A stretch of 64,000 nt of DNA, taken from NCBI RefSeq assembly GCF_015291745.1, contig NZ_CP030059.1, forward strand, positions 2,569,501-2,633,500, in the 5' to 3' direction. Made by a program: the position numbers and the translations under genes. The DNA comes from Bradyrhizobium sp. CCBAU 53351. GTDB lineage: Bacteria > Pseudomonadota > Alphaproteobacteria > Rhizobiales > Xanthobacteraceae. Numbering within the stretch: position 1 is the stretch's first letter; every line of letters begins with the position of its first letter. Below, piece by piece: positions 35,813-49,513 of this stretch. The notes below the pieces were generated by a model. That model was given only the letters and a program-made list of their open reading frames with translations. It searched no databases and had not been told where the DNA came from.

Positions 35813-36241
35813 TTAGGCGGCCGCTTGCGGCGTGCCGTTGAGGGCCTCGTCGATGGCAGCTGCGATGTCGCGCATGCTGATCACGGAGACGAGGCTGTAA
35901 TCGTCGATCACCGGCAGGTGGCGGATGTGGTGCCGGTTCATCAGGTGGCGGACCTCATCGATCGTGTCGCTCGAGGTGCAGGACACCAGCTGCTGCACCG
36001 AGACGAGCTGCGAGACCTTGACGTTGACGGCGTTCGTGCCGTGCTCGGCGACGGCGCGCACCACGTCGCGCTCGGTGAACATGCCGACCGCGGTGTTACC
36101 CTCGGAGCGGACCACGTCCTTGACCACCAGTGCGCTGATGTTGTTGGCGCGCATCAGCTTGGCGGCGATACCCACCGTTTCGTTCATCCGCACCGTGACA
36201 ACGCGCGGCGTCTTCTTGCGCAGAATGTCTCCGACCAGCAT
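35813..36241 (-). CDS. Two-CBS-domain protein, member of the proposed oxalate regulon
   Basis: A 142-residue protein made of two CBS domains (about 6-65 and 75-130). The first contains VVTVRMNETVGIAAKLM; the second ends HHIRHLPVIDDYSLVSVIS. CBS pairs bind adenine nucleotides or similar ligands and usually regulate another protein. I start at 36241 (MLVGDILRKK), where GGGAGG lies 7 bases upstream. A copy of the 17-bp palindrome found before the oxalate genes lies 33 bases upstream of the ATG, so it is probably expressed with them. Its partner is unknown. Confidence 0.9.
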   Translation of the reverse strand: MLVGDILRKKTPRVVTVRMNETVGIAAKLMRANNISALVVKDVVRSEGNTAVGMFTERDVVRAVAEHGTNAVNVKVSQLVSVQQLVSCTSSDTIDEVRHLMNRHHIRHLPVIDDYSLVSVISMRDIAAAIDEALNGTPQAAA

Positions 36242-36274: not shown

Positions 36275-36291
36275 TGGTATACATAATGCCA
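36275..36291 (-). promoter_or_regulatory. Proposed oxalate-regulon operator, copy 1 (CBS gene)
   Basis: TGGTATACATAATGCCA on the plus strand, arms TGGTAT and ATGCCA. On the transcribed strand it starts 2 bases after a -35-like TTGACG. It lies 33 bases before the CBS-domain gene. Confidence 0.6.
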
Positions 36292-36369
36292 ATCGTCAAG
36301 CGCTGGATTTGGCCGATCCGAAAAATCTTGCGACAGCGATACTGACGTTTGCCGTCGAGACAAAAAGAA

Positions 36370-36393
36370 AAGGGGCGCATCGCTGCGCCCCTT
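36370..36393 (-). terminator. Terminator after the first OxlT-like gene
   Basis: AAGGGGCGCA and TGCGCCCCTT pair around a 4-base loop. On the minus strand the hairpin is followed by TTCTTTTTG. It lies 25 bases after the transporter stop. Confidence 0.75.
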
Positions 36394-36417
36394 CTCGTTG
36401 TTGCGAATGTGCGGCGG

Positions 36418-37752
36418 CTACGCCGTCTCGGTCTTTGCACTTGTCTTGGCACTGCCGGTCGCGGTCTCGGTGCTCTCGGCTTCCTTGCCGAGGATGAAGG
36501 AGCGGCGCAGCGGCTTGATCACGAACAGCGCCATCAGCGCCGCCGTCGCATTCAAGGCCACTGCGACCACGAACACGGCCTTCCAGCCATAGGCCGCCGA
36601 GATCACGCTTGCGAGCGGAACGAGCAGGGAGGCGGTGCCCTTCGCGGTGTAGAGCATGCCGTTATTGGTGGTTGCGAATTTCGAGCCGAAGGTGTCGCCG
36701 CAGGTCGCGGGGAACAGCGAGTAGATCTCGCCGAACACGCCGAAGTACACCGCGGTTGCCAGCACGAAGACGAGCGGGATGTGACCGTAGGCCGACAGCG
36801 TCAGCAGCATCAAGGCGGCGGTGCCGAAGGCGATGAACATGGTGTGCTCGCGGCCGATCGTGTCGGAGACGAAGCCGAAGAACGGGCGGCCGAATCCGTC
36901 GAAGATGCGGTCGAGCGAGATCGCGAAGGTCAGTGCCGCCATCTGGAAGCCGGCGAGCGTGACTGGCGTGCTCGCGATCTTGAAGTCGTGCGCGATCGGG
37001 GCGATCTGCGCCGCGGTCATCAGGCCGCCCGAGGCGACCATGACGAAGACGAGATACATCACCCAGAAAATAGGCGTCCGCAGCACTTGCGGCGGGGTGA
37101 AGTCGATCTTGGTCTGCGGCAAATTGAGCTGCTTCTTCTTCGGCGGGATCGAGAGCCGCGGCGGCTGGATGAAGAAGGCGAGCACGAACACGATCACGCC
37201 CTGGCCGATGCCGAAGGTGAGGAAGGCGTGCTGATAGCCGCTGGATGCGATCATGGCTGCGATCGGCACCACGGTGAGCGCAGCGCCCGCACCGAAGCCC
37301 GCGGCCGTCGCGCCGGCGGCAAGGCCGCGGCGATCGGGAAACCATTTCAGCGCGTTGCCGACGCAGGTGCCGTACACCGCGCCCGCGCCCATGCCGCCGA
37401 TGACCGCTGCCGCGTAGAGCAGCGTGAGCGAGTCGGCATAGGAGTTGAGGATCCAGGACAGCGCGATCATCACGCCGCCGAACATGATGACGATGCGCGG
37501 GCCGTATTTGTCGACGAACCACGCCTCGACCGGCACCAGCCAGGTCTCGGTGACGACGAAGATGGTGAAAGCGAGCTGGATCGCGGCGCGCCCCCAATGA
37601 TGGGCTGCGTCGATCGGATCGACGAACAGCGTCCAGCCATATTGCAGATTGGCGATCATCGCCATGCAGACGATGCCCATGGCGAGCTGGAACCAACGGA
37701 AACCGGTGCGAAGAGGCGCGGCCGTGACGGCGCCATCCGTGCTGGAAATCAT
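36418..37752 (-). CDS. OxlT-like MFS transporter (oxalate/formate antiporter family)
   Basis: A 444-residue major facilitator with 12 predicted helices. The loop between helices 2 and 3 has the family signature GPRIVIMFGGVM, and the segment YGTCVGNALKWFPDRRGLAAG is characteristic of the oxalate:formate antiporter family. The C terminus is a long soluble tail rich in Ser, Thr and Ala. I start at ATG 37752, with GGGAGG upstream; the codon before it is TTG. A 17-bp palindrome lies 102 bases upstream. Genes for Oxc and Frc in the same region support oxalate or another carboxylate as substrate. Confidence 0.9.
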   Translation of the reverse strand: MISSTDGAVTAAPLRTGFRWFQLAMGIVCMAMIANLQYGWTLFVDPIDAAHHWGRAAIQLAFTIFVVTETWLVPVEAWFVDKYGPRIVIMFGGVMIALSWILNSYADSLTLLYAAAVIGGMGAGAVYGTCVGNALKWFPDRRGLAAGATAAGFGAGAALTVVPIAAMIASSGYQHAFLTFGIGQGVIVFVLAFFIQPPRLSIPPKKKQLNLPQTKIDFTPPQVLRTPIFWVMYLVFVMVASGGLMTAAQIAPIAHDFKIASTPVTLAGFQMAALTFAISLDRIFDGFGRPFFGFVSDTIGREHTMFIAFGTAALMLLTLSAYGHIPLVFVLATAVYFGVFGEIYSLFPATCGDTFGSKFATTNNGMLYTAKGTASLLVPLASVISAAYGWKAVFVVAVALNATAALMALFVIKPLRRSFILGKEAESTETATGSAKTSAKTETA

Positions 37753-37854
37753 CAAGAACCTCCCAACGCGCCTGATTGATTGCGACTTTGGATTGCAAGA
37801 TGACCCAGTGTCGCAAATGTTGTGGCTTATCGTCGCAAGCGCTGGGGCGGAGCT

Positions 37855-37871
37855 TGGTATACCATATTCCA
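37855..37871 (-). promoter_or_regulatory. Proposed oxalate-regulon operator, copy 2 (first OxlT-like gene)
   Basis: TGGTATACCATATTCCA, with one mismatch in the right arm (ATTCCA for ATGCCA). On the minus strand TTGCTT lies 2 bases before it, the same arrangement as copies 1 and 3. Confidence 0.5.
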
Positions 37872-37955
37872 GAAAGCAAGTGCTATCTGCGGCGGATTGT
37901 CACAAATCTTCGGTTCCAGCGGGGAGCTGGCGCCGCAAGCTTTCCCTGAACGAAA

Positions 37956-37979
37956 ACGCCCGGCCGCAAGGCCGGGCGT
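37956..37979 (-). terminator. Terminator after the second OxlT-like gene
   Basis: ACGCCCGGCC and GGCCGGGCGT pair around GCAA, followed on the minus strand by TTTTCG. It lies 26 bases after the transporter stop. Confidence 0.75.
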
Positions 37980-38004
37980 CTGCTCGATGAAGCTGTGGTG
38001 GGCG

Positions 38005-39294
38005 TCAGGCGACCGTCGATTTTGCGACGACGACCTTGCGCCAGGGCTTGAGCACCGCGATCGCCAGCAGCGAGGCCAGGATGTTGGCGCCGGCTGCGAT
38101 GATGAACACGCTGTCCCAGGTGCCCGACGATTGCTGCATGTAGTTTGCGATCGGTACCAGCAGCGCGGCGGTGCCCTTGGCGGTGTAGAGCAGGCCGGCA
38201 TTGGTGGTCGCGAACTTGGCGCCGAACGTGTCGGTGCAGGTCGAGGGGAACAGCGAGTAGATCTCACCCCAGGCGAAGAACACGAAGCCCGAGAGCAGCA
38301 CGAACCAGATCGGATCGTGACCCCAGAGGTAGAGCATCCAGATGCCGAAGCCTTCCATGCCGAAGGCGATGAACATCGTGTTCTCGCGGCCGATCATGTC
38401 GGAGATCCAGCCGAAGAACGGACGGGTCAGGCCGTTGAGCACGCGGTCGATCGTGGCCGCGAAGGTCACTGCCGTCATCGTCACCGCCATTAGCGTGACC
38501 GGCACGTTGTCGACCTTCCAGTCGGCCGCGATCGGCTTCAGGTTGGCCGTCACCATCAGGCCGCCGGCGCCGACGATCACGAACATGAAGTACATCAGCC
38601 AGAAGATCGGCTGACGCAGAACTTCGGTCGGCTGGTAGTTGCGGCGGGTCTGCAGCAGATTGGCGTTCGCCACCACGTTCGGCACCTGGCCCGCCTTCGG
38701 CGACAGCAGGAAGAAGGCGAGGATGCAGATGACGATGCCTTGGCCGAGGCCGAAATAGAGGAAGGTGGTCTGGAAGCCACTGTCCTTGATCATGGCCTGG
38801 ATTGGCGCGACCGTCAGCGCAGAGCCTGCACCGAAACCTGCCGCCGTGATGCCCGCGGCGAGGCCGCGCTTGTCCGGAAACCACTTCAGCGCGTTGCCGA
38901 CGCAGGTGCCGTAGACGCCGCCGGCGCCGATGCCCGCGACGATCATGCCGAGGTAATAGCCGTTGAGCGTGGTGGCCTGTGCGTTGATCGCCCAGCCGAT
39001 GGCGCAGAGCACGCCGCCGACCAGCACGACGATTCGCGGACCGTATTTATCGACGAACCATCCTTCGATCGGCACCAGCCAGGTCTCGAACAGCACGAAG
39101 AGGGTAAAGGCCCATTGGATCGATGCGCGATCCCAGCCGAACTTCTTCTGGATGTCGGGGACGAAGAACGTCCAGCCGTATTGATAGTTGGCGATCATCA
39201 CCATCGCGCCTACACCGATCGCCAGTTGCGCCCAGCGATACGTGTCGCTAACGCGCGCGGTAGTAGGGGCGGTTGCCTGCACCATGTCCGTCAT
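38005..39294 (-). CDS. Second OxlT-like MFS transporter
   Basis: A 429-residue paralogue of the transporter downstream. They share QYGWT in helix 1, ETWLVP.E.WFVDKYGPRIV, YGTCVGNALKWFPD.RGLAAG and FGEIYSLFP.TC.DTFG.KFATTN. Twelve membrane helices are predicted. ATG at 39294 has GGGAGG upstream, and a copy of the 17-bp palindrome lies 51 bases before it. Each transporter has its own operator and terminator, so they are separate units. One may carry oxalate/formate exchange and the other a related acid. Confidence 0.92.
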   Translation of the reverse strand: MTDMVQATAPTTARVSDTYRWAQLAIGVGAMVMIANYQYGWTFFVPDIQKKFGWDRASIQWAFTLFVLFETWLVPIEGWFVDKYGPRIVVLVGGVLCAIGWAINAQATTLNGYYLGMIVAGIGAGGVYGTCVGNALKWFPDKRGLAAGITAAGFGAGSALTVAPIQAMIKDSGFQTTFLYFGLGQGIVICILAFFLLSPKAGQVPNVVANANLLQTRRNYQPTEVLRQPIFWLMYFMFVIVGAGGLMVTANLKPIAADWKVDNVPVTLMAVTMTAVTFAATIDRVLNGLTRPFFGWISDMIGRENTMFIAFGMEGFGIWMLYLWGHDPIWFVLLSGFVFFAWGEIYSLFPSTCTDTFGAKFATTNAGLLYTAKGTAALLVPIANYMQQSSGTWDSVFIIAAGANILASLLAIAVLKPWRKVVVAKSTVA

Positions 39295-39345
39295 AAAGCC
39301 TCCCGTGGCGCCTCTAATTTTTCTGCGAGCGCTGGAGAGGCATTC

Positions 39346-39362
39346 TTGTATGCATTATGCCA
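39346..39362 (-). promoter_or_regulatory. Proposed oxalate-regulon operator, copy 3 (second OxlT-like gene)
   Basis: TTGTATGCATTATGCCA. On the minus strand it starts 2 bases after TTGAAG, and sequence further upstream (CCAGCGCTTGA) is identical to copy 1. Confidence 0.55.
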
Positions 39363-39447
39363 AGCTTCAAGCGCTGGTCCGGCCACCGTGCGCAAATGTC
39401 GCAGCCTTGTTCAGCGGCAACTGTGACTCGGAACAGCACAAGTAGAA

Positions 39448-39470
39448 ATGGCCCCGTCGTGCGGGGCCAT
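39448..39470 (-). terminator. Terminator after the 45-residue gene
   Basis: ATGGCCCCG and CGGGGCCAT pair around a 5-base loop, followed on the minus strand by TTCTACTTG. It lies 68 bases after the small gene's stop, which supports that gene being a real transcription unit. Confidence 0.65.
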
Positions 39471-39538
39471 TCATCAAAAGTAGCATGTGGATCGTTCTGA
39501 AACCGTCGCGCTGCGTGGCAGCGCGGGAAAGTAACGGC

Positions 39539-39676
39539 TTACAGGCCGAAGCGCGGCAGGTCGCCGTTGTGGTTCGAGATCTCGGCGCTCGCCATCAGGA
39601 AGCTGTCGATCGCGGCCATCAGGCGGGCGAACAGCGAGGCGGAGGGGGCCAAAGCAACGGAAGCGGTCTTGGACAT
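39539..39676 (-). CDS. 45-residue protein of the proposed oxalate regulon
   Basis: ATG at 39676 to TAA at 39539-39541, with AAGGAAA 6 bases before the start. The protein begins MSKTASVALAPSASLFARLM and ends NHNGDLPRFGL. A central amphipathic helix (about 13-32) could lie on a membrane or bind a partner. It has its own copy of the oxalate-type palindrome 55 bases upstream, a leader hairpin and a terminator, so it is a complete small unit. It has some likeness in size and charge to DUF1127-type small proteins, but I do not assign it. The role is unknown. Confidence 0.7.
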   Translation of the reverse strand: MSKTASVALAPSASLFARLMAAIDSFLMASAEISNHNGDLPRFGL

Positions 39677-39691
39677 TGGAATTTCCTTTCT

Positions 39692-39715
39692 TGAGACGGT
39701 CAGTCTTGCGTCTCA
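39692..39715 (-). promoter_or_regulatory. Leader hairpin before the 45-residue gene
   Basis: TGAGACG (39692-39698) and CGTCTCA (39709-39715) pair around 10 bases. It lies between the operator and the ribosome binding site, within the expected mRNA leader. It may affect translation or RNA stability. The gap 39677-40020 (344 bases) holds this hairpin and the operator; the remaining part toward the Hsp70-like gene shows nothing definite. Confidence 0.45.
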
Positions 39716-39731
39716 TGTCTGGGAACAATCT

Positions 39732-39748
39732 ATGTATACCAGATGCCA
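39732..39748 (-). promoter_or_regulatory. Proposed oxalate-regulon operator, copy 4 (45-residue gene)
   Basis: ATGTATACCAGATGCCA; the right arm is perfect and the left arm matches 4 of 6. On the minus strand TGGACA lies one base before it. Confidence 0.5.
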
Positions 39749-40020
39749 CTGTCCATGTGTTTGTTTGCATGGCAGCATGTAATGCGCCGCATTGCAGCAT
39801 AACGCCGGGTTAATGCGGCCGGTTCGGGCATAAAATTGCCCATCTTGAGCCGCTGAGCGGGCCCTATCATTGCCGAAAGGCGCGAAAGCCTGGGCGGAAT
39901 CCCGGAATCTCATTGCGGCGGGCGCCAGGCTCCGGCCGCACTGCAGCAGACGGGCTTGGCAGGACAAGTCAAAGCGGCTAGTGGTCCGCCCCCTTATCCA
40001 ATCAACCGTCAGAGTGGTTC

Positions 40021-41352
40021 ATGTCGAGCGCCTCGCCCGCCGTCTCGATCGGCATCGATTTTGGGACCAGCAATACGGTCGTCGCGCTCGCGGCGGACGA
40101 CCGCCGGGTCGAGGCCATCCGCTTCGACCACGGCGGCCAGCGCCACAGCACCTACGTCTCGGCGCTGTGCTTCTGGGAGGACCGGCCGGGCGCCGGGGCC
40201 CAGGCCGAGGGCGGCCCGTGGGCGATCGAGACGTTCCTCGAAGGCCGCCACGTCTACCGGTTCCTCCAGTCGTTCAAGACGTTTGCCGCCAGCAGCAGCT
40301 TCCAGACGACGCAAGTGTTCCGGCAGCGCTTCAAGTTCGAGGACATCCTGGCGGCATTCCTGCGCACGCTGGCGCGCCATGGCGGTGAGAAGTTCGGCTT
40401 CGAGGCGTCCAACATCACGGTCGGCCGGCCCGTGCGCTTTGCCGGCGGCAATCCGGATGAGGCGCTGGCAATGCAGCGCTACCGTGCCGCCTTCGAGCGC
40501 CTCGGCGCCGGCCACGCGCGCTATGTTTACGAGCCGGTCGGCGCCGCGTTCTCCTTCGCCCGAAAGCTTGAGCGCGATGCCACCGTGCTGGTTGCGGATT
40601 TCGGCGGCGGCACCAGCGATTTCTCCGTGATGCGCTTTTCGCGCAAAGGCGGTGCCCTACGCGCCGAGCCGCTCGGCCATGCCGGCATCGGGATTGCCGG
40701 CGACACGTTCGACTACCGCATCGTCGATCACGTGGTCTCGCCGCGCCTGGGCAAGGGCTCCAGCTTCCGCTCCTTCGACAAGGTGCTGCCGATCCCCAGC
40801 GGTCATTTTACCAACCTGGCCCGCTGGCATCAGCTGGCGATGATGAAGAGCAATGGCGATCTGCGCGAGCTCCGGGAGCTTGCGCGCACCGCGCTGAAGC
40901 CTGAACTGCTCGAGGATTTCATCACCATCGTCGATCTCGACCTCGGCTTTGCGCTGTACCGCGCAGTGTCCGACGCCAAGGTTGCGCTGTCGGCGCAGGA
41001 CGAGGTGAATTTCCGTTTCAGAGGCGGCGGCGTCGATATCGGATCGACCGTCACGCGAAAGAATTTCGAATCCTGGATCGCCGACGACATCGCTCGCCTC
41101 GGCGCCACCGTCGACAAGGTGCTGGGCGAAGCCGGCATCACCGCGCGCGAAGTCGAGAAGGTGTTCCTGACCGGCGGCACCTCGTTCGTGCCGGCGGTGC
41201 GAAAACTGTTCGCCGAACGCTTCGGCAACGAACAGCTGATGTCGGGCGACCAGTTCGAGTCGATCGCCTATGGCCTCGCGCTGATCGGGCACAGTCCGGA
41301 GCCGGATCGCTGGACCGCCGATGGCGGGATCGGAAAGAAGGCGGGCGCGTAG
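40021..41352 (+). CDS. Hsp70-family ATPase (YegD-like)
   Basis: A 443-residue actin-fold ATPase of the Hsp70 superfamily. The phosphate-1 loop is SIGIDFGTSNTVV at residues 8-20, phosphate-2 is VADFGGGTSDFSV at about 198-210, and the adenosine motif is FLTGGTSFVPAVRK near 383-396. It ends soon after the nucleotide-binding fold, without the substrate-binding and lid domains of DnaK, as in E. coli YegD (about 450 residues). No DnaJ or GrpE is nearby, so its client is unknown. The oxalate-type operator upstream points the other way. Confidence 0.9.
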   Translation: MSSASPAVSIGIDFGTSNTVVALAADDRRVEAIRFDHGGQRHSTYVSALCFWEDRPGAGAQAEGGPWAIETFLEGRHVYRFLQSFKTFAASSSFQTTQVFRQRFKFEDILAAFLRTLARHGGEKFGFEASNITVGRPVRFAGGNPDEALAMQRYRAAFERLGAGHARYVYEPVGAAFSFARKLERDATVLVADFGGGTSDFSVMRFSRKGGALRAEPLGHAGIGIAGDTFDYRIVDHVVSPRLGKGSSFRSFDKVLPIPSGHFTNLARWHQLAMMKSNGDLRELRELARTALKPELLEDFITIVDLDLGFALYRAVSDAKVALSAQDEVNFRFRGGGVDIGSTVTRKNFESWIADDIARLGATVDKVLGEAGITAREVEKVFLTGGTSFVPAVRKLFAERFGNEQLMSGDQFESIAYGLALIGHSPEPDRWTADGGIGKKAGA

Positions 41353-41391
41353 CGCTCGCTTCCTCGTTCTCCGCCATTGCGGGCGCAGCGC

Positions 41392-41481
41392 CGTAGGGTG
41401 GGCAATGCGAAGCGTGCCCACGTCCCGTACGCGACCAGAAACGAATGGCGGCGCGGCGCCAGTGCGGCTTGCCGCCCTACG
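41392..41481. repeat. Dispersed GTAGGGTGGGCA element
   Basis: CGTAGGG (41392-41398) and CCCTACG (41475-41481) form terminal inverted repeats of a 90-base element. Inside, GTGGGCA and TGCCCAC pair around AATGCGAAGCG. I recall this wording from intergenic repeats in many proteobacteria. It lies between convergent genes. Confidence 0.6.
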
Positions 41482-41496
41482 ATACTGATGTCGCCG

Positions 41497-41940
41497 CTAC
41501 TGAGTGATCTCGGGCTCGACGAGCTTCGCCAGATTGCGCAGCGATTCCTGCCAGCCGAGATAGCAGGCCTCCGGCGGGATGACGTCGGGAATGCCGGCCT
41601 GCGTGATGTCGATCTCGGTGCCGACCGAAACTTTCTTCAGGATCACGGTGACCTGGATTTCGCCGGGCAGGTTGGGATCGTCGAACTTGTCCGTGTAGCG
41701 CAGGCGTTCGCCGGGCACGAGCTCGAGATATTCACCGCCGAACGAATGGCTGTTGCCCGTCGTGAAGTTCCGGAACGACATCTTGAACGTGCCGCCCACC
41801 TTGGGCTCGAAATGATGCACGGTGCAGGTGAAGCCGTTCGGCGGCAGCCATTTCGCCATCGCATCCGCCTCCAGGAAGGCGCGATAGACCTTCTGCGGGC
41901 TGGTGGCGAGAACACGGTGCAGGCGGATCGTGCTGGGCAT
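41497..41940 (-). CDS. SRPBCC-family protein (AHSA1-like)
   Basis: A 147-residue START/Bet v 1-like domain protein. The N-terminal strand-helix segment TSPQKVYRAFLEADAMAKWL and the closing helix ACYLGWQESLRNLAKLVE are typical of AHSA1/SRPBCC proteins, which bind hydrophobic ligands. I start at 41940 (MPSTIRLHRV), with GAGGA 8 bases before the ATG; a start 15 bases upstream is in frame. Such genes are often paired with an ArsR repressor, but none is adjacent. The ligand is unknown. Confidence 0.88.
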   Translation of the reverse strand: MPSTIRLHRVLATSPQKVYRAFLEADAMAKWLPPNGFTCTVHHFEPKVGGTFKMSFRNFTTGNSHSFGGEYLELVPGERLRYTDKFDDPNLPGEIQVTVILKKVSVGTEIDITQAGIPDVIPPEACYLGWQESLRNLAKLVEPEITQ

Positions 41941-42151
41941 GGTTGTTATCCTCATTGATTGATGGGCCCGAGATTGGTGTCTATGGCCCCTTCATGTCAC
42001 GAGGACGACCGGGACACCGCCGATCCGACACGAGGTCTCGAGTTTTTTGGCGGGTGACCGGCCGCCGGCAATCTGCATCCGCTTCAAAACCGAAGCCACA
42101 ATTCCGCTGCCCTTCTTCGTTCAACTCTAGCGCGAAACCGGGGGACTTCCG

Positions 42152-43120
42152 TTGCGCAGGATGCTTTGGGCTTTTGCCGTCATTTTCTGCTGTTTCACGT
42201 CGACCGCGGAGGCTGCGGGCATTCAGCTCCTTGAATCCGGCCCGGCGCTGTCAGGCGCGATCTGGTATCCGTGCGCGGCCGAGCCGGCGCATGTGGCGTT
42301 GGGCAGCCTTGCGGTCGGCGCCGATTTCGACCTGAAGGGGGCGAGGGATTGTCCCGTCACCGGCGCGAAACTCCCGGTCATCATCTTTTCGCACGGTCGT
42401 GGCGGCTGGTTCGGCCAGCATCACGACACCGCGGAGGCGCTGGCCGATGCGGGCTTCGTCGTTGCGGCCGTCAACCATCCCGGTGACACCGCAAACGATT
42501 CCTCACGGCGCGATACGCTGTCTCTCTGGGGCTCGCGTCCGGCGGATATCGTTCGTTTGCTCGATTTCATGCTGAAGAACTGGAAGGACAGGGCGGTGAT
42601 CGATCCTGCCCAGGTTGGGTTCTTTGGTTTCTCGAGTGGCGGTGCGACCGGCTTCGTGCTGATGGGGACCAAGCCTGATTTCGCGAGGGTCGCCAGCTTC
42701 TGCAAGGAGACGAGCGGCGCTTGCGCGCAGCTTCACAATGGTGAGACGCCGCCCGAGCCGATCCAGGATGCGCGCATCCGAACCGCCGTCATCGTCGATC
42801 CCGCGCCAGGCACCCTGACGCGGGAGAATCTCGCCGTCGTCAAGGTGCCGTTCCAGTTCTGGCGCTCGCAGTTCGGCGGCCCCGGTGTCGGCGACGGCTC
42901 GGGCACGGAGCGCGTCGCGCAGGGATTGCCGGGCAAGCCGGAGATTCATGTCGTGCCGGCCGGCCATTTTGCGTTCCTCGCGCCGTGTTCGGCCGAGCTC
43001 GCGGCAGCCGTCCCCCGCATCTGTACCGACACGCCGGCCGGGTTCGACCGGGTGGGCTTTCATCGCGAGTTCAATGCAGCGGTGGTGAAGTATTTTCGCG
43101 GTCAGCTCGGAGAGCACTAA
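42152..43120 (+). CDS. Exported alpha/beta-hydrolase (dienelactone hydrolase-like)
   Basis: A 322-residue protein with a signal peptide (about 1-21, ending AEA). The hydrolase core has the oxyanion segment VIIFSHGRGGWFGQH, the nucleophile elbow GFSSGGATG with the serine near residue 165, and a late histidine in VVPAGHFAF. It resembles periplasmic dienelactone hydrolase-like or PAF-acetylhydrolase-like enzymes. I choose TTG at 42152, with GGGGGA 6 bases upstream and an Arg-Arg n-region; ATG at 42161 is possible. Four cysteines in the mature part may form disulfides. Substrate unknown. Confidence 0.85.
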   Translation: MRRMLWAFAVIFCCFTSTAEAAGIQLLESGPALSGAIWYPCAAEPAHVALGSLAVGADFDLKGARDCPVTGAKLPVIIFSHGRGGWFGQHHDTAEALADAGFVVAAVNHPGDTANDSSRRDTLSLWGSRPADIVRLLDFMLKNWKDRAVIDPAQVGFFGFSSGGATGFVLMGTKPDFARVASFCKETSGACAQLHNGETPPEPIQDARIRTAVIVDPAPGTLTRENLAVVKVPFQFWRSQFGGPGVGDGSGTERVAQGLPGKPEIHVVPAGHFAFLAPCSAELAAAVPRICTDTPAGFDRVGFHREFNAAVVKYFRGQLGEH

Positions 43121-43143
43121 GCTCGAAATCGGGATCAAACAAA

Positions 43144-43167
43144 AAGGCCGCCGAAACCGGCGGCCTT
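43144..43167. terminator. Bidirectional terminator between the hydrolase and frc
   Basis: AAGGCCGCCG and CGGCGGCCTT pair around AAAC. A-rich bases (CAAAAA) flank it on the left and give T's on the minus strand, so it serves frc best. Confidence 0.75.
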
Positions 43168-43189
43168 CGTCATTCGCTGTTGTGTCCGC

Positions 43190-44467
43190 TTACTCCGCGG
43201 CCTGCTTCTGCGGCGGGTCGAGCGCGCCGGACTTGTGGATCTCGGCGACCTGATGGTCGCTGAAGCCGAGCACCGAGCGCAGGATCTCGTCGGTGTGCTC
43301 GCCGAGCAGCGGGGAGCGCTCCACCTCGCTCGGTGAATCCGACAGCTTGATCGGGTTGCCGACCGAGATGTACTTGCCGCGGGTGGGGTGATCGACCTCG
43401 ACCACGGTCCCGGTCGCGCGCAGCGACTGGTCTTCGGCGATTTCCTTCATCGACAGGATCGGGCCGCAGGGGATGTCGTCCTTGTTGAGGATTTCCATCG
43501 CCTCGAACTTGGTCTTGGTCATCGTCCACTGCTCGATGCGGGCGAAGATCTCGTTGAGGCGCGGCAGGCGGGCCGCAGGCTTCGCGTAGTTCGGATCGGT
43601 CTTCCAAGTGGGCTCGCCGATCACGTCGCAGATCTTCTCCCAGACCGGAGCCTGGGTGATGAAGTAGATGTAGGCGTTGGGATCGGTCTCCCAGCCCTTG
43701 CACTTCAGGATGCGGCCGGGCTGGCCACCGCCCGAGTCGTTGCCGGCGCGCGGCACGGCATCGCCGAACGGAATGCCTTCGCCGAACTGGCTGTATTCCT
43801 TGAGCGGGCCGTGGGCAAGGCGCTGCTGGTCGCGCAGCTTGACGCGGGCGAGGTTGAGCACGCCGTCCTGCATCGCGGCGGTGACGCGCTGGCCCTTGCC
43901 CGAATGCGTGCGCTGATAGAGCGCGGTGACGATGCCCAGCGCCAGGTGCAGGCCGGTGCCGGAATCGCCGATCTGCGCGCCGGTGACGAGCGGCAGGCCG
44001 TCGCGGAAGCCCGTGGTCGAGGCGGCGCCGCCGGTGCACTGCGCGACGTTCTCATAGACCTTGCAGTCTTCGTACGGTCCGGGGCCAAAACCCTTGATCG
44101 AGGCGACGATCATCTTCGGGTTGATCGCCTGGATCTTCTCCCAGGGGAAGCCCATGCGGTCGAGCACGCCGGGGCCGAAATTCTCGACCAGCACGTCGCA
44201 CTTCTTGATCAACTCGGTGAGGACTTCCTTGCCCTTGGGGTTCTTGGTGTCGAGCGTGATCGAGCGCTTGTTGTGGTTGAGCATGGTGAAATACAGGCTG
44301 TCCACGTTCGGGATGTCCTGCAGCTGGCCGCGGGTGATGTCACCCACGCCCGGACGTTCCACCTTGATCACGTCGGCGCCGAACCACGCCAGCAGCTGCG
44401 TGCAGGTCGGCCCGGACTGGACGTGAGTGAAATCGAGAATGCGAACGCCCGTGAGCGCTTTGGTCAT
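43190..44467 (-). CDS. frc: Formyl-CoA:oxalate CoA-transferase
   Basis: A 425-residue class III CoA-transferase that moves CoA from formyl-CoA to oxalate, giving oxalyl-CoA and formate. The length is close to the Oxalobacter enzyme (428). The N-terminal [20 protein letters not shown] and KVERPGVGD are family signatures. The catalytic aspartate is probably D168 in [13 protein letters not shown], matching Asp169 of Oxalobacter Frc. It lies 63 bases downstream of oxc on the same strand, so it is the last gene of a gntR-oxc-frc unit. GGAGC precedes the ATG. Confidence 0.95.
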
Positions 44468-44530
44468 CTTGTTGCTCCGTACTGTGTCTGCCCCTGCAGC
44501 CGGCAGGGAATAAAGGGTTGAGGGGTGGAC

Positions 44531-46264
44531 TTACTTCTTCTTCTGCAGAACGCTCTGCGGATTGAGGTTGCCGATGCGGCCGCTTTCCGAGCCGGCGGCC
44601 GGATCGATCACCGCGTTGATGAGCGTCGGCTTGCCGGACTTCATGGCCTCGTTGACGGCGCGCTTCAGCTCGTCGGGCGAGGTCGCGTTGACGCCGACGC
44701 CGCCGAAGGCTTCCATCATCTTGTCGTAGCGCGCGCCCTTGACGAACACTGTCGTCGCCGGATCGGAATTGGCGCCGTTGACGTCGGTGCCGCGATAGAT
44801 GCCGTCATTGTTGAATATGACGACGCAGATCGGCAGGTTGTAGCGGCAGATGGTCTCGACCTCCATGCCGGAGAAGCCGAAGGCCGAGTCGCCTTCCACG
44901 GCCAGCACGGGATGGCCGGTCTCGAGCGCGGCCGCGATCGCCTGGCCCATGCCGATGCCCATCACGCCCCAGGTGCCGACGTCGAGACGCTTGCGCGGCC
45001 GGTACATGTCGATGACGCCGCGGGCGAGATCGAGCGTGTTGGCGCCCTCGTTGACGAGGATCGCCTCGGGGTGCTCCTTGATGACGTTCTTAAGCACGCC
45101 GAGCGCGCCGTGATAGTCCATCGGCGATTTGTTGTTCATGAGCTTCGGCGCCATCTTGGCGACGTTCTCTTCGCGCTTGGACGAGATGGCCTTGGTCCAG
45201 TCGGCGGGAGGGGCGGTCCAGCCCGTTCCCATCGCCTGGTTGAAGGCGGAGACGACCGAGCCGATGTCGCCGACCACGGGCGCGACGATCTCGACGTTGG
45301 AGTCCATCTCACGCGGCTCGATGTCGACCTGGATGAACTTCTTCGGGGATTCGCCCCAGCTCTTGCCCTTGCCGTGCGAGAGCAGCCAGTTCAGCCGCGC
45401 GCCGATCAGCATGACGACGTCGGATTCCTTCAGCACCGTCGAGCGGGCCGCGCCGGCGCACTGCGGATGGGTGTCTGGGAGCAGGCCCTTGGCCATGCTC
45501 ATGGGGAGGAACGGCACGCCGCTCTTCTCGACGAAATTCTTGATCTCTTCGTCGGCCTGCGCGTAGGCCGCACCCTTGCCGAGGATGATGAGCGGACGCT
45601 TGGCGCTCTTGAGTACGTCGAGCGCACGCTTGACCGAAGCGGGCGAGGGGATCTGCGCGGGCGCCGCGTCGATCACCTTGACCAGCGACTTCTGGCCGGC
45701 ATCGGCGCTCATGACCTGGCCGAACAGTTTTGCGGGAAGGTCGAGATAGACGCCGCCCGGACGGCCCGAGACCGCGGCGCGGATCGCGCGGGCAAAACCG
45801 ATCCCGATGTCCTGGGCGTGCAGCACGCGATAGGCCGCCTTGCACAACGGCTTGGCGATCGCGAGCTGGTCCATTTCCTCGTAGTCGCCCTGCTGCAGGT
45901 CGACGATCTCGCGCTCGGAGGAGCCCGAGACCAGGATCATCGGGTAGCAGTTGGTGGTGGCGTGCGCGAGTGCGGTGAGACCGTTGAGGAAGCCGGGCGC
46001 GGAGACCGTGAGGCAGACGCCGGGCTTCTTGGTGAGATAGCCGGCGATGCCTGCGGCGTAACCGGCGTTCTGCTCGTGGCGGAAGGAAATCACGCGAATG
46101 CCTTCGGCTTGCGCCATGCGGCCCAAATCCGTGATCGGGATGCCCGGCACATTATAGATAGTGTTGATGCCGTTCAGCTTGAGCGCGTCGATGACGAGAT
46201 GGAAGCCATCCGTCAGTTCCTGCTCGGTGCCCGGTGCCTCGGACTTGGTCGCGGTATTCAGCAT
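44531..46264 (-). CDS. oxc: Oxalyl-CoA decarboxylase
   Basis: A 577-residue thiamine-diphosphate enzyme that decarboxylates oxalyl-CoA to formyl-CoA. The N-terminal pyrimidine-binding domain contains the catalytic glutamate region [13 protein letters not shown] with [14 protein letters not shown] central domain (about 205-365) binds ADP. The C-terminal domain carries the cofactor motif [14 protein letters not shown] through VVIFNND (about 470-505). I start at [10 protein letters not shown] (46264), where GGGAGAGAAGG precedes the ATG; the longer frame is shadow. Length matches the family (about 565-580). Confidence 0.96.
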
Positions 46265-46337
46265 GGGCCTTCTCTCCCTGGTCTCAAGTAGCGGGGCGAA
46301 TTGTTCGCCCTTCTGGTGAACGTTGCTAGGTGAACAG

Positions 46338-47069
46338 TTACGTGAACAATTCCTGGCCATGCGCTTCGACGTAAGAGGCAAGGCCGAGGGTGTGGTCGCG
46401 GGCGCGCTTCTCCGCAAGTTCGGTATCGCGCGCTTCGAGTGCTTCGATCATCGCGAGATGCTCGGGCAGCGAGGTCGCGGTGCGGTCCTTGCGTCCGATG
46501 GTCAGCTGGCGATAGCCGCGCACGTGCAGCAGCAGGTCATTGGTGAGATCGACCAGCACCGGCGATTCCGACAGCGAGATCAGCGCCTGATGGAAGGCGA
46601 TGTTGGCGCGCGAATATTCCTCGACATGATCCTCGGGCAGGCGGTCCTTGCCGAAGTCCTTGAAATAGTCGCGCAGCGCCGTGATGTCCTTCTTGCGCGC
46701 GGTGGTGGTGATGAGGCGCGCGGCCATGCTCTCCAGCGCCGCCCAGGCGCGGATCATGTCGACGATCTCGCTCTTGGTCCGGCGCACCACCATGATGCCG
46801 CGGCGCGGAACCGTCTTCACGAAACCGTCCTGCTCGAGCATCGCGATGGCTTCGCGGATCGGGGTGCGGCTGACACCCAGGCGTTCGGACAGCGCGCGCT
46901 CGTCCAGCATCACCGGCTCGGGCGTCGAATAGATGTCCATCTTGAGGATGGCTTCCTTCAAGGCGTCATACGCCTTGTTCTTGAAGCTGCTCTCCGGGGC
47001 AATACGAACGATTGCGATGTCTGCCTCGGCCATGTTCGGCAACGCCTTGGTTGGTTTCCGTAGTGACAC
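46338..47069 (-). CDS. GntR/FCD-family regulator, proposed controller of the oxalate regulon
   Basis: A 243-residue FadR-subfamily regulator. The N-terminal winged helix (about 25-90) has [20 protein letters not shown] and [14 protein letters not shown]. The C-terminal FCD domain (about 100-235) has the metal-ligand pattern of an Asp or Glu with histidines (IAFHQAL near residue 163 and later). I take GTG at 47069, with GGAGGA 8 bases before it; ATG at 47033 is a weaker option. The gene lies directly upstream of oxc on the same strand. A perfect palindrome at 47126-47142 lies 56 bases before the GTG, so it probably regulates itself as well. Confidence 0.9.
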
Positions 47070-47125
47070 GACGAATCTCCTCCAGTGGGAGTCGTCTTTT
47101 ACAGGAATATTAACGGGAAAGTTTT

Positions 47126-47142
47126 TGGCATACCACATGCCA
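47126..47142 (-). promoter_or_regulatory. Proposed oxalate-regulon operator, copy 5 (gntR-oxc-frc)
   Basis: TGGCATACCACATGCCA, perfect 6-bp arms. On the minus strand a consensus -35 TTGACA ends 3 bases before it, so a bound repressor would block RNA polymerase. Confidence 0.7.
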
Positions 47143-47206
47143 GAATGTCAAGGCGGCTATTTTTTGCGGCGTTCTAAGCCATGCTGCAGCTTGACAAGTT
47201 GGCTTC

Positions 47207-47223
47207 TGGCATACCAAATGCCA
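47207..47223 (+). promoter_or_regulatory. Proposed oxalate-regulon operator, copy 6 (acyl-CoA ligase gene)
   Basis: TGGCATACCAAATGCCA, perfect 6-bp arms and 16 of 17 positions identical to copy 5. A plus-strand TTGACA lies at 47191-47196, 10 bases upstream. It is 160 bases before the ligase ATG; that stretch has no convincing small gene. Confidence 0.7.
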
Positions 47224-47383: not shown

Positions 47384-49513
47384 ATGTCCAATTCCAAAGA
47401 AGCCGTCCGCAAGGTGCTTGACCAGGTCAAGGCGGACAACCGCACCAGCCTGACGGCCCCGGAAGGCAAGCTGGTCTGCGACGCCTACGGCATTCCGGTT
47501 CCAAAGGAGGGCGTGGCCAAGTCGGCGGGCGAGGCCGGCAAGATGGCCTCCTCGATGGGCTTCCCGGTCGTGATGAAGATCGTCTCGCCGGACATTCTCC
47601 ACAAGACCGAAGCCGGCGGCGTCATCGTCGGCCTCAAGACGGCTGAGGACGCCGAAAAGGCCTACGAGACCATTCTGTCCAACGCCAGGAAGTACAAGGC
47701 TGATGCCAAGATCGAGGGCGTGCAGGTGCAGCAGATGCTGGCCGGCGGCACCGAAGTCATCGTCGGCTCGATCACCGACGGCTCGTTCGGCAAGCTGGTC
47801 GCCTTCGGCCTCGGCGGCGTGTTGGTCGAGGTGCTCAAGGACATCACCTTCCGCCTCGCGCCCGCGACCAAGGAAGACGCGCTCTCGATGCTCGACGGCA
47901 TCCAGGCGCACGAGATTTTGAAGGGTGTGCGCGGTGGGGAAGCGGTGAACCGTACGGCGCTGGCCGATGTCATCGTCAAGGTTTCGCAGCTCGTCACCGA
48001 TTTCCCAGAGATCGTCGAGCTCGACCTCAACCCGGTGTTCGCCACGGCGAAGAGCGCGATCGCGGCCGACGTCCGCATCGTCGTCGACTTCGCCTATGTG
48101 CCGAAGCCGAAGCCGCGCCCGACCGAAGAGATCGTCGCGGCGATGAGCCGCATCATGCAGCCGAAGGCCGTCGCCGTGGTCGGCGCCTCCGCCGAGGACG
48201 GCAAGATCGGCAACTCCGTGATGAAGAACCTCATCAACGGCGGCTACAAGGGCGACATCTATCCGATCCATCCCAAGGCCGCCGAGATCCTCGGCTACAA
48301 GGCCTACAAGAGCGTCAAGGACGTGCCCGGCGTGATCGACACCGCCGTGTTCGCGATCCCTGCCAAGTTCGTCGCGGCGGCGCTGACCGAATGTGGCGAG
48401 AAGAAAATCCCGGGCGCGGTGCTGATCCCGTCGGGCTTCGCGGAAGCCGGCGCGCCGGAGCTGCAGGCCGAGATCGTCGAGGTCGGCAAGAAGTACGACA
48501 TCCGCCTGATGGGGCCGAACATCTACGGCTTCTATTATACACCGGCCAATCTCTGCGCGACCTTCTGCACGGCCTACGACGTCAAGGGCCACGCGGCGCT
48601 GTCGTCGCAGTCGGGCGGCATCGGCATGGCCATCATCGGCTTCTCGCGTTCGGCGAAGATGGGCGTTTCGGCCATCGTCGGCCTCGGCAACAAGTCCGAT
48701 ATCGACGAGGACGATCTGCTCGCCTTCTTCGAGCAGGATCCGAACACGAACCTGATCGCGCAGCACTGCGAAGACCTCAAGGACGGTCGCGCCTTTGCGG
48801 AAGCGGCAAAGCGCGTCTCCAAAAAGAAGCCGGTCGTCGTGCTCAAGGCCGGCCGCACGTCGGCCGGCGCCAAGGCGGCCTCGTCGCACACCGGCGCGCT
48901 CGCCGGCAACGACAAGATCTACGAGGACGTGCTGGCGCAGTCGGGCGTGATCCGGGCCCGCAGCTTGCGGCAATTGCTCGAATTCGCCCGCGGCGTGCCG
49001 GTGCTGCCGACGCCGAAGGGTGAGAACGTGCTGATCATCACCGGTGCCGGCGGCTCGGGCGTGCTGCTGTCGGACTCCTGCGTCGACAACGGCCTGTCGC
49101 TGATGTCGATGCCGCCGGATCTCGATGCGGCCTTCCGCAAGTTCATCCCGCCGTTCGGTGCGGCCGGAAATCCTGTGGATATCACCGGCGGCGAGCCGCC
49201 GATCACCTACGTCAACACGGTGAAGCTCGGCCTCTCCGATGAGCGCATCCACTCGCTGATCCTCGGCTACTGGCACACCATCGTCACCCCGCCGATGGTG
49301 TTCGCCCGCAACATGGTCGAGGTGAAGAAGGAGATGGAGGCCAAGGGCTTCGTGAAGCCGATCGTCGCCTCGCTCGCCGGCGACGTCGAGGTCGAGGAAG
49401 CCGCCGAATATCTCTACCAGAACGGCATCCCGGCCTATGCTTATTCGACCGAGTTGCCGGTCGAGGTCCTCGGCGCCAAGTACAGGTGGGCGCGCGGGGC
49501 AGGGCTGCTCTGA
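47384..49513 (+). CDS. ADP-forming acyl-CoA ligase-like protein, ATP-grasp domain first
   Basis: A 709-residue protein of the NDP-forming acetyl-CoA synthetase superfamily. Residues about 15-235 form the ATP-grasp domain (VVMKIVSPDILHKTEAGGV with H73; ELDLNPVF). Residues about 250-700 hold the CoA-binding and ligase domains (VAVVGASAEDGKIGNSV; LSSQSGGIG; the probable phosphohistidine H502 in SSHTGALAG). Many relatives have the CoA domain first, so this is the permuted order. Such enzymes activate acids to CoA thioesters with ATP to ADP. The shared operator with oxc and frc suggests it makes oxalyl-CoA or formyl-CoA to prime the cycle; this is inference. Confidence 0.9.
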   Translation: MSNSKEAVRKVLDQVKADNRTSLTAPEGKLVCDAYGIPVPKEGVAKSAGEAGKMASSMGFPVVMKIVSPDILHKTEAGGVIVGLKTAEDAEKAYETILSNARKYKADAKIEGVQVQQMLAGGTEVIVGSITDGSFGKLVAFGLGGVLVEVLKDITFRLAPATKEDALSMLDGIQAHEILKGVRGGEAVNRTALADVIVKVSQLVTDFPEIVELDLNPVFATAKSAIAADVRIVVDFAYVPKPKPRPTEEIVAAMSRIMQPKAVAVVGASAEDGKIGNSVMKNLINGGYKGDIYPIHPKAAEILGYKAYKSVKDVPGVIDTAVFAIPAKFVAAALTECGEKKIPGAVLIPSGFAEAGAPELQAEIVEVGKKYDIRLMGPNIYGFYYTPANLCATFCTAYDVKGHAALSSQSGGIGMAIIGFSRSAKMGVSAIVGLGNKSDIDEDDLLAFFEQDPNTNLIAQHCEDLKDGRAFAEAAKRVSKKKPVVVLKAGRTSAGAKAASSHTGALAGNDKIYEDVLAQSGVIRARSLRQLLEFARGVPVLPTPKGENVLIITGAGGSGVLLSDSCVDNGLSLMSMPPDLDAAFRKFIPPFGAAGNPVDITGGEPPITYVNTVKLGLSDERIHSLILGYWHTIVTPPMVFARNMVEVKKEMEAKGFVKPIVASLAGDVEVEEAAEYLYQNGIPAYAYSTELPVEVLGAKYRWARGAGLL

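Follow-up and report, generated by a model that had tools for sequence, protein, structure and literature searches.

A regulator gene of the GntR type, the oxalate genes around it and six copies of a 17-bp box were analysed in a stretch of 64,000 nucleotides from Bradyrhizobium sp. CCBAU 53351 (contig NZ_CP030059.1, positions 2,569,501 to 2,633,500), called the window throughout, and in related genomes. The locus contains the following genes.

46338..47069, minus strand: GntR/FCD regulator (VanR group by prediction), proposed binder of the boxes; Pfam GntR and FCD on the longer open reading frame, with model and fold matches
44531..46264, minus strand: oxc, oxalyl-CoA decarboxylase; TIGR03254, 1059.9 bits (cut-off 739.4)
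43190..44467, minus strand: frc, formyl-CoA:oxalate CoA-transferase; TIGR03253, 760.4 bits (cut-off 504.2)
47384..49513, plus strand: ADP-forming acyl-CoA ligase; ATP-grasp_5, CoA_binding_2, Succ_CoA_lig and Ligase_CoA_2
36418..37752, minus strand: oxalate/formate MFS antiporter 1 (OxlT1); TIGR04259, 643.2 bits (cut-off 335)
38005..39294, minus strand: oxalate/formate MFS antiporter 2 (OxlT2); TIGR04259, 646.9 bits (cut-off 335)
39539..39676, minus strand: conserved 45-residue protein; open reading frame in 34 of the 80 named loci described below, no Pfam match
35813..36241, minus strand: two-CBS-domain protein; PF00571, 80 bits, two stretches

The gene set of the oxalyl-CoA route is present, as frc, oxc and both antiporters exceeded the NCBI curated cut-offs. 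The acyl-CoA ligase reached no NCBIfam cut-off and is a candidate oxalate/formate activating enzyme, these being its presumed substrates. The long open reading frame of the regulator begins at an ATG within box 5. The true start of gntR is probably the GTG at 47069, behind GGAGGAG, since 11 of 24 relatives in the genus match only from residue 14-20 of the long frame and in 4 others a stop falls within the matched region. The six boxes are placed as follows.

36275..36291, minus strand: box 1, putative operator of the CBS-domain gene; perfect to TGGYATN5ATRCCA
37855..37871, minus strand: box 2, putative operator of antiporter 1; 1 mismatch
39346..39362, minus strand: box 3, putative operator of antiporter 2; 1 mismatch
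39732..39748, minus strand: box 4, putative operator of the 45-residue protein gene; 2 mismatches
47126..47142, minus strand: box 5, putative operator of gntR-oxc-frc (autoregulation); perfect
47207..47223, plus strand: box 6, putative operator of the acyl-CoA ligase gene; perfect

All six boxes were found where an earlier sequence-only reading had placed them. Its description of them as palindromes holds for 6-bp arms around a 5-bp spacer, and the symmetry is complete only in boxes 5 and 6 (6/6 arm positions), falling to 5/6 for boxes 1 and 2, 4/6 for box 3 and 3/6 for box 4. Oriented as their genes are transcribed, the sequences are TGGCATTATGTATACCA (CBS), TGGAATATGGTATACCA (OxlT1), TGGCATAATGCATACAA (OxlT2), TGGCATCTGGTATACAT (45-residue gene), TGGCATGTGGTATGCCA (gntR-oxc-frc) and TGGCATACCAAATGCCA (ligase). 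The word TGGYATACCANATGCCA at up to 3 mismatches gave 6 matches in the window against 0.27 expected, a number reached in 0 of 100 shuffles; these were five of the boxes and one match (47200) overlapping box 6. Box 3 has 4 mismatches to TGGYATACCANATGCCA, yet it is 1 mismatch away from TGGYAT-N5-ATRCCA. As a general motif TGGYATACCANATGCCA was dropped because its centre is not conserved at the CBS and OxlT boxes, and the symmetric pattern was used instead. Chance as the origin of the boxes was ruled out by the shuffles together with the genome-wide counts and the conservation described below.

The placement of the boxes in their promoters was also analysed. A TTGNNN hexamer starts 8, 8, 8 and 9 bases before boxes 1, 2, 3 and 5, while TGGACA starts 7 bases before box 4 and TTGACA 16 bases before box 6, which is in accordance with the -35 elements claimed by the sequence-only reading. 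The TTGCTT before box 2 was taken from the sequence directly, being absent from the three top-scored hexamers. Boxes 1, 2, 3 and 5 thus open 2-3 bases past the hexamer and cover the spacer to the -10 region, and this position right behind the -35 hexamer indicates repression. An Hsp70-like protein (40021-41352, plus strand) is encoded divergently from the 45-residue gene, with its start about 0.28 kb from box 4.

The whole genome (8,343,321 bases in 2 contigs) was scanned with TGGYAT-N5-ATRCCA, the reversed pattern serving as control. The scan revealed 5 perfect copies against 0 for the control, and 34 sites at up to 1 mismatch against 11. The five perfect copies are boxes 1, 5 and 6, one site before a formate dehydrogenase operon (fds) and one before sucC-sucD-sucA. 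About 60 bp separate the fds site from the NuoF-like gene downstream of it, and formate dehydrogenase alpha (TIGR01591, 723.7 bits, cut-off 666.25) follows that gene. The suc site is about 70 bp upstream of sucC, after which come sucD and the E1 component of 2-oxoglutarate dehydrogenase, with mdh upstream. At up to 2 mismatches TGGYATACCANATGCCA occurs at 10 places in the genome, one overlapping box 6; among the other 9, 7 are at the boxed promoters and 2 elsewhere (one inside a trehalase-like open reading frame). Boxes no commoner near these genes than elsewhere had been named as a ground for giving up the proposed regulon; instead, all five perfect copies precede oxalate, formate or succinyl-CoA genes. 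The sequence comparison supports a regulon that would reach past the window to formate dehydrogenase and sucCD-sucA, and that would unite oxalate uptake, activation and decarboxylation with formate oxidation. Separately, an OFA-family MFS transporter of the lactate/oxalate-formate type (L040:4069-5724, near 1.549 Mb of contig C1 in the own genome) lies before the boxed formate dehydrogenase operon, at a distance of about 0.5 kb; it scores just under the SfMCT cut-off and has no perfect box of its own.

Conservation within the genus was examined in two sets of loci, which overlap and are not independent. In a search of 41 genomes the GntR was found in 29, comprising all 25 of the genus (the own genome included) and 4 of the 16 from elsewhere in the order. 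Boxes 5 and 6 were both perfect in 25 of the 25 genus loci, and the four distant GntR loci were boxed as well, three close to gntR and one about 0.6 kb off. An alignment of the gntR-ligase intergenic region (35 loci, 33 genomes) revealed the two boxes with their adjoining TTGAC hexamers as the longest invariant stretches. The second set, the named loci, consists of the best 80 of 534 (78 titled Bradyrhizobium, 1 Bradyrhizobiaceae and 1 Tardiphaga). The claim would have suffered from boxes lost in relatives; both boxes 5 and 6 are perfect in 80/80 of these loci.

Upstream boxes in the named loci were counted for genes with 250 bp of upstream sequence inside the locus. A perfect box within this distance was present for 80 of 81 gntR matches and 80 of 80 ligase matches. 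At up to 1 mismatch a box preceded the CBS gene in 16/16, OxlT1 in 10/10 and OxlT2 in 23/25 scored cases, and at up to 2 mismatches it preceded the 45-residue gene in 34/34 scored copies (5 at 1 mismatch). Genes inside the operon served as internal control and showed no box at up to 1 mismatch upstream (0 of 108 oxc and 0 of 80 frc matches). Across 16 Bradyrhizobium genomes the fdsB box was perfect in 9, with 1 mismatch in 3 and 2 mismatches in 4; the sucC box was perfect in 14, had 1 mismatch in 1 and was missing in 1 (G015). The conservation of the sites and the gene set are read directly from these comparisons.

Some side observations belong here. In G015 a second sucC copy (L137) is preceded by two boxes, one perfect and one with 1 mismatch, and no box at up to 2 mismatches precedes the other copy; the two enzymes perhaps share the work, one made constitutively and one under oxalate control. 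The 45-residue protein (MSKTA...NGDLPRFGL) usually keeps 45 codons across loci, with the box about 65 bp upstream, and its gene differs from the window copy at 263 synonymous and 318 non-synonymous codons. Beside this gene in relatives, perfect boxes stand before tripartite tricarboxylate transporter genes (L073:12909, L083:8665), named TctC and TctA by Pfam in both loci, with TctB confirmed in L083; NCBIfam at E<=1e-15 gave no name for the extra boxed genes of relatives. The boxed Tct transporter is a candidate second uptake system of the regulon. Four further genomes of the genus held 29 perfect sites, some assigned to genes; about three of the 29, whose centres are CG-rich, may be chance matches.

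The co-inheritance of boxes and regulator was then examined in other families. At the fdsB and sucC loci of nine other-family genomes, no box at up to 1 mismatch occurred in the six that lack the GntR. Of the three that have it, G030 shows perfect boxes at fdsB and before a second sucC-like gene, with none at the first; G033 shows a 1-mismatch box at fdsB and a perfect one at sucC; and G026 shows no box in either locus, with two perfect sites 2.2-2.6 kb upstream of fdsB on the same contig. In a survey of 297 genomes of the order the GntR was present at E<=1e-45 in 79 and not in 218. Perfect sites numbered 313 in the former (0.82 per Mb) and 279 in the latter (0.32 per Mb), against reversed-control densities of 0.05 and 0.04 per Mb; the difference in site density gave a Mann-Whitney p of about 1.6e-14, uncorrected for kinship.

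The loci of these regulators were fetched (77 loci with 84 matches, 83 of them usable, one with <200 bp upstream being left out). A box was counted from 400 bp upstream to 30 bp into gntR, and linkage meant oxc or frc within 6 kb. The linked matches carried a box at up to 1 mismatch in 38 of 52 cases, 19 of these perfect, and outside Bradyrhizobium in 37 of 51; the matches with no oxc or frc nearby did so in 9 of 31. Random segments of the same loci contained a box in 3.5% of 7,700, the boxes themselves included. The boxes track the orthologue of this GntR. Boxed and linked orthologues occur in 21 families of the order, that of the window included, the lowest identity among boxed matches being about 42%, and in other families boxes also precede OxlT, ligase, fdsB, frc and a sucCD-like pair. 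The 85 GntR proteins placed in a tree fell into two deep clades, with boxes in both. In a survey of the phylum the GntR was found in 26 of 398 genomes (E<=1e-40), and beyond the order a box stands at gntR in 2/2 loci of family f60.

The architecture of the operator was derived from the collected sites, in which the outer arms hold most of the information and the centre is variable. TGG occupies positions 8-10 in 34 of 77 genus sites and 38 of 99 others, with CCA there in 17 and 18 more, respectively. When dyads were counted without supervision in 48 upstream regions from outside the family, parts of TGGTATACCA ranked first, and TGG-N4-CCA and TGG-N11-CCA were each found in 34/48 (backgrounds 0.094 and 0.122). 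Operators of the FadR subfamily are described as palindromes with TKGT/ACMA, in which GT and AC are 2-3 nt apart, and weaker extra half-sites are known 7-12 nt away from GntR palindromes (PMC4494728); here the outer pair equals or exceeds the inner one in conservation. Many of the boxes contain TGGTATACCA (GT-N2-AC), but the inner TGG is missing from several (CBS, OxlT), and conservation is stronger in the outer 17-bp arms. The sites with the inner TGG have the form TGGYAT-N-TGGYATRCCA, a compact 10-bp palindrome, perhaps of FadR-subfamily type, with a third half-site 7 bp away. Boxes 5 and 6 lie 81 or 82 bp apart in 77 of the 80 named loci, whereas the interval between box 6 and the start of the ligase varies from 25 to 162. 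By the criterion of PMC4494728 the constant spacing suggests cooperation of the two boxes; back-to-back promoters are an equally simple reason.

The regulator was compared with the other FCD proteins of the genome. It has a GntR-type winged helix-turn-helix (PF00392, 46.8 bits, cut-off 27) and an FCD domain (PF07729, 77.7 bits, cut-off 24.3). Among 26 FCD genes only this gntR is boxed; the other 25 showed no site at up to 1 mismatch within the fetched 1.8-2.0-kb regions, by direct scan for 19 and from the genome-wide list of sites at up to 1 mismatch for the remainder. Eleven residues of the helix-turn-helix and wing (RSRTPREPRRG), chosen by reference to GntR-DNA contacts, occur as a set in none of the 16 other FCD proteins, out of 25, in which this region could be aligned. 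In orthologues 11/11 are invariant (14-row alignment) and 10/11 are at least 90% conserved (47-row alignment). This set, the lack of a box at the other FCD genes and the box in its own promoter support this GntR as the best candidate binder of the boxes. The sequence-only reading had proposed it as a FadR-type binder; the comparison upholds the protein, while the predicted type is VanR-group instead.

An AlphaFold2 model from the 47-row alignment (mean predicted local distance difference test score 84.4) has six effector-domain helices at 99-237 and a 4-residue one at the end. Six such helices characterise the VanR group of FCD proteins and an additional one the FadR group (PMC7797058), so the regulator is predicted to belong to the VanR group. 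The fold matches in the PDB include Atu1419, PmiR, TM0439 and McbR, with the best E-value for 7u5q. Atu1419 is a VanR-group FCD-GntR repressor of hydroxycinnamate catabolism in Agrobacterium fabrum, matched at E 3e-9 to 3e-8 over its chains with 24-27% identity and a TM-score of about 0.55-0.6. Its zinc ligands Asn137, His141, His192 and His214 align with N156, H160, H204 and H226 of the present regulator, which are invariant in the 14- and 47-row alignments, and an Asn-His3 metal site is predicted in the FCD domain, in keeping with the Asp/Asn and three His that bind the metal in metal-dependent FCD sensors. As this site is aligned to zinc ligands, a small metal-chelating carboxylate such as oxalate would be the first-choice effector, and free oxalate is a likelier one than oxalyl-CoA.

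Taken together, the boxes are probably the operators of the GntR at 46338-47069, which would respond to oxalate and repress a regulon by which oxalate is oxidised completely, and we hold this reading with good confidence. We infer binding, repression, the effector and the role of sucCD in the following scheme. In cells without oxalate, dimers of the GntR would sit on the boxes and exclude RNA polymerase; in four of the six window promoters the box separates the -35 hexamer from the -10 region. Oxalate, imported or formed from glyoxylate, would bind to the FCD domain, the probable contact being a metal coordinated by Asn156, His160, His204 and His226, and the DNA would be released. The OxlT-type antiporters, Frc, Oxc and the acyl-CoA ligase would then be made. 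The sucCD-sucA operon would be turned on too and might supply the succinyl-CoA for priming, and formate would be oxidised to CO2 by the newly made NAD-linked formate dehydrogenase. Proteome data on arabinose-grown B. diazoefficiens, in which oxalate is a proposed intermediate, showed increased Frc and Oxc in the cytoplasm-enriched fraction, with the NuoF-like blr2316 seen only in arabinose-grown cells (PMC5996035). With blr2316 taken as the probable fdsB orthologue, these changes fit induction of the pathway.

The boxes may be operators of the same GntR with a metabolite upstream or downstream of oxalate (glyoxylate, glycolate, formate) or oxalyl-CoA as the effector; this is possible, and we consider it distinctly less probable than the response to oxalate. 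The GntR-type repressor GlcR of Paracoccus, which controls glycolate oxidase, answers to glycolate (PMC11323563), and in arabinose catabolism glyoxylate feeds into oxalate (PMC5996035). The gene set, however, is specific for oxalate and formate, and the predicted VanR-group fold with its Asn-His3 site suits a small carboxylate better than an acyl-CoA. That the GntR is an activator or a dual regulator is unlikely. A related FCD protein of E. coli, GlcC, activates glcDEF (PMC11323563), whereas a protein bound at four of the six window boxes, right behind the -35-like hexamer, would block the polymerase. Binding by another regulator, with gntR merely a target, is rated lower still. The number of FCD genes, the one near the fds operon and the close likeness of one of them (L401) would allow it, but the motif tracks the orthologues of this GntR across families, and the residue set and boxed promoter set it apart from the other FCD proteins. 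A reading of the boxes as sigma-54 promoters was rejected as highly improbable, since GG-N10-GC is present in boxes 1, 5 and 6 on the plus strand but absent from boxes 2, 3 and 4, the conserved feature is symmetric, and conserved TTGAC hexamers adjoin boxes 5 and 6.

Several results weigh against the oxalate-responsive repressor. The fdsB and sucC promoters have no clear -35 at the equivalent place. The FCD protein L401 differs at only 1 of the 11 compared residues, and another FCD gene lies 0.8 kb beyond the fds operon. No box at up to 1 mismatch was found for 14 of the 52 oxc/frc-linked GntR matches, and 4 of the 79 GntR genomes lack a perfect site. Conversely, 37 of the 218 genomes without the GntR at E<=1e-45 have three or more perfect sites. 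For such site-rich genomes, the inner TGG occurs in 0 of 31 sites of four (as read from the list), 9 of 11 sites of one are copies of a single sequence, and in eight the nearest GntR match (E<=1e-15) is 30-33% identical in 7, with none in the eighth. A subclade of paralogues, mostly near ligase/sucCD genes, has a box at the own gene in only 1/19. Beyond the order, a box is upstream of gntR in 0/5 f109 loci and 0/1 f66 locus. The f109 proteins (another class; L374, L377, L380, L381 and L386) are 51-56% identical and have frc- or oxc-like genes as neighbours; divergence of their operator is a possibility. In the proteome study, Oxc was unchanged in the membrane-enriched fraction, and the main text has no mention of succinyl-CoA (PMC5996035). 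As a separate observation, a second GntR paralogue (57-63% identical) occurs in several families (L171-L190), often beside ligase/sucCD genes and mostly without a box of its own.

A wider proposal is put forward only tentatively. According to it, the oxalate-sensing repressor would couple a peripheral pathway to the tricarboxylic acid cycle, with sucCD-sucA yielding the priming succinyl-CoA under oxalate, and would act through the three-half-site operator and through divergent operators bridged at a fixed 81 bp.

The system was compared with known ones. The palindromes of Atu1419 lie on the -10 or between the -10 and -35, resembling the boxes described here, and two of its sites are in its own promoter region, a likeness to gntR (PMC7797058); its operator is a compact 10-bp ATGTATACAT, whereas the conserved unit here is 17 bp with an extra half-site and would serve an oxalate pathway. 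NanR of E. coli is likewise a GntR-type repressor with GGTATA half-sites as repeats (PMC8012715), and about 40% of the present boxes repeat TGG 7 bp on; NanR binds three direct repeats, while here an inverted arm closes the site (TGG-N11-CCA, TGG-N4-CCA). GlcR and GlcC are also GntR regulators of a neighbouring C2-acid pathway (PMC11323563), but they control glcDEF, whereas the present regulator would control the oxalate genes. For the oxalate genes themselves, no named regulator of oxc-frc was found in the literature searched, which left most subscription journals outside its scope. The yfdW and yfdU genes are presumably homologues of frc and oxc, and EvgA is a two-component acid-stress regulator unrelated to GntR. 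EvgA controls yfdXWUVE of E. coli (PMC6339873), the likeness lying in the control of frc/oxc homologues.

Oxalotrophy of Bradyrhizobium was reportedly linked to root nodules by Koch in 2014. It has also been linked to arabinose use (PMC5996035). A term search of the main texts of PMC4842269 (transcription start sites of B. japonicum) and PMC6515984 found only a citation of Koch 2014, and the present GntR is apparently unstudied. The predicted regulon is a new one of a known kind, a probable FCD-GntR repressor adjoining its pathway. What is new, as far as seen, is the link of regulator, operator and pathway for oxalate, the membership of formate dehydrogenase and sucCD-sucA, and the three-half-site form. 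For many families of the order, the regulon would provide a testable list of the genes that oxidise oxalate completely. It ties formate dehydrogenase and sucCD to oxalate, and it suggests the GntR as a candidate bacterial oxalate sensor.

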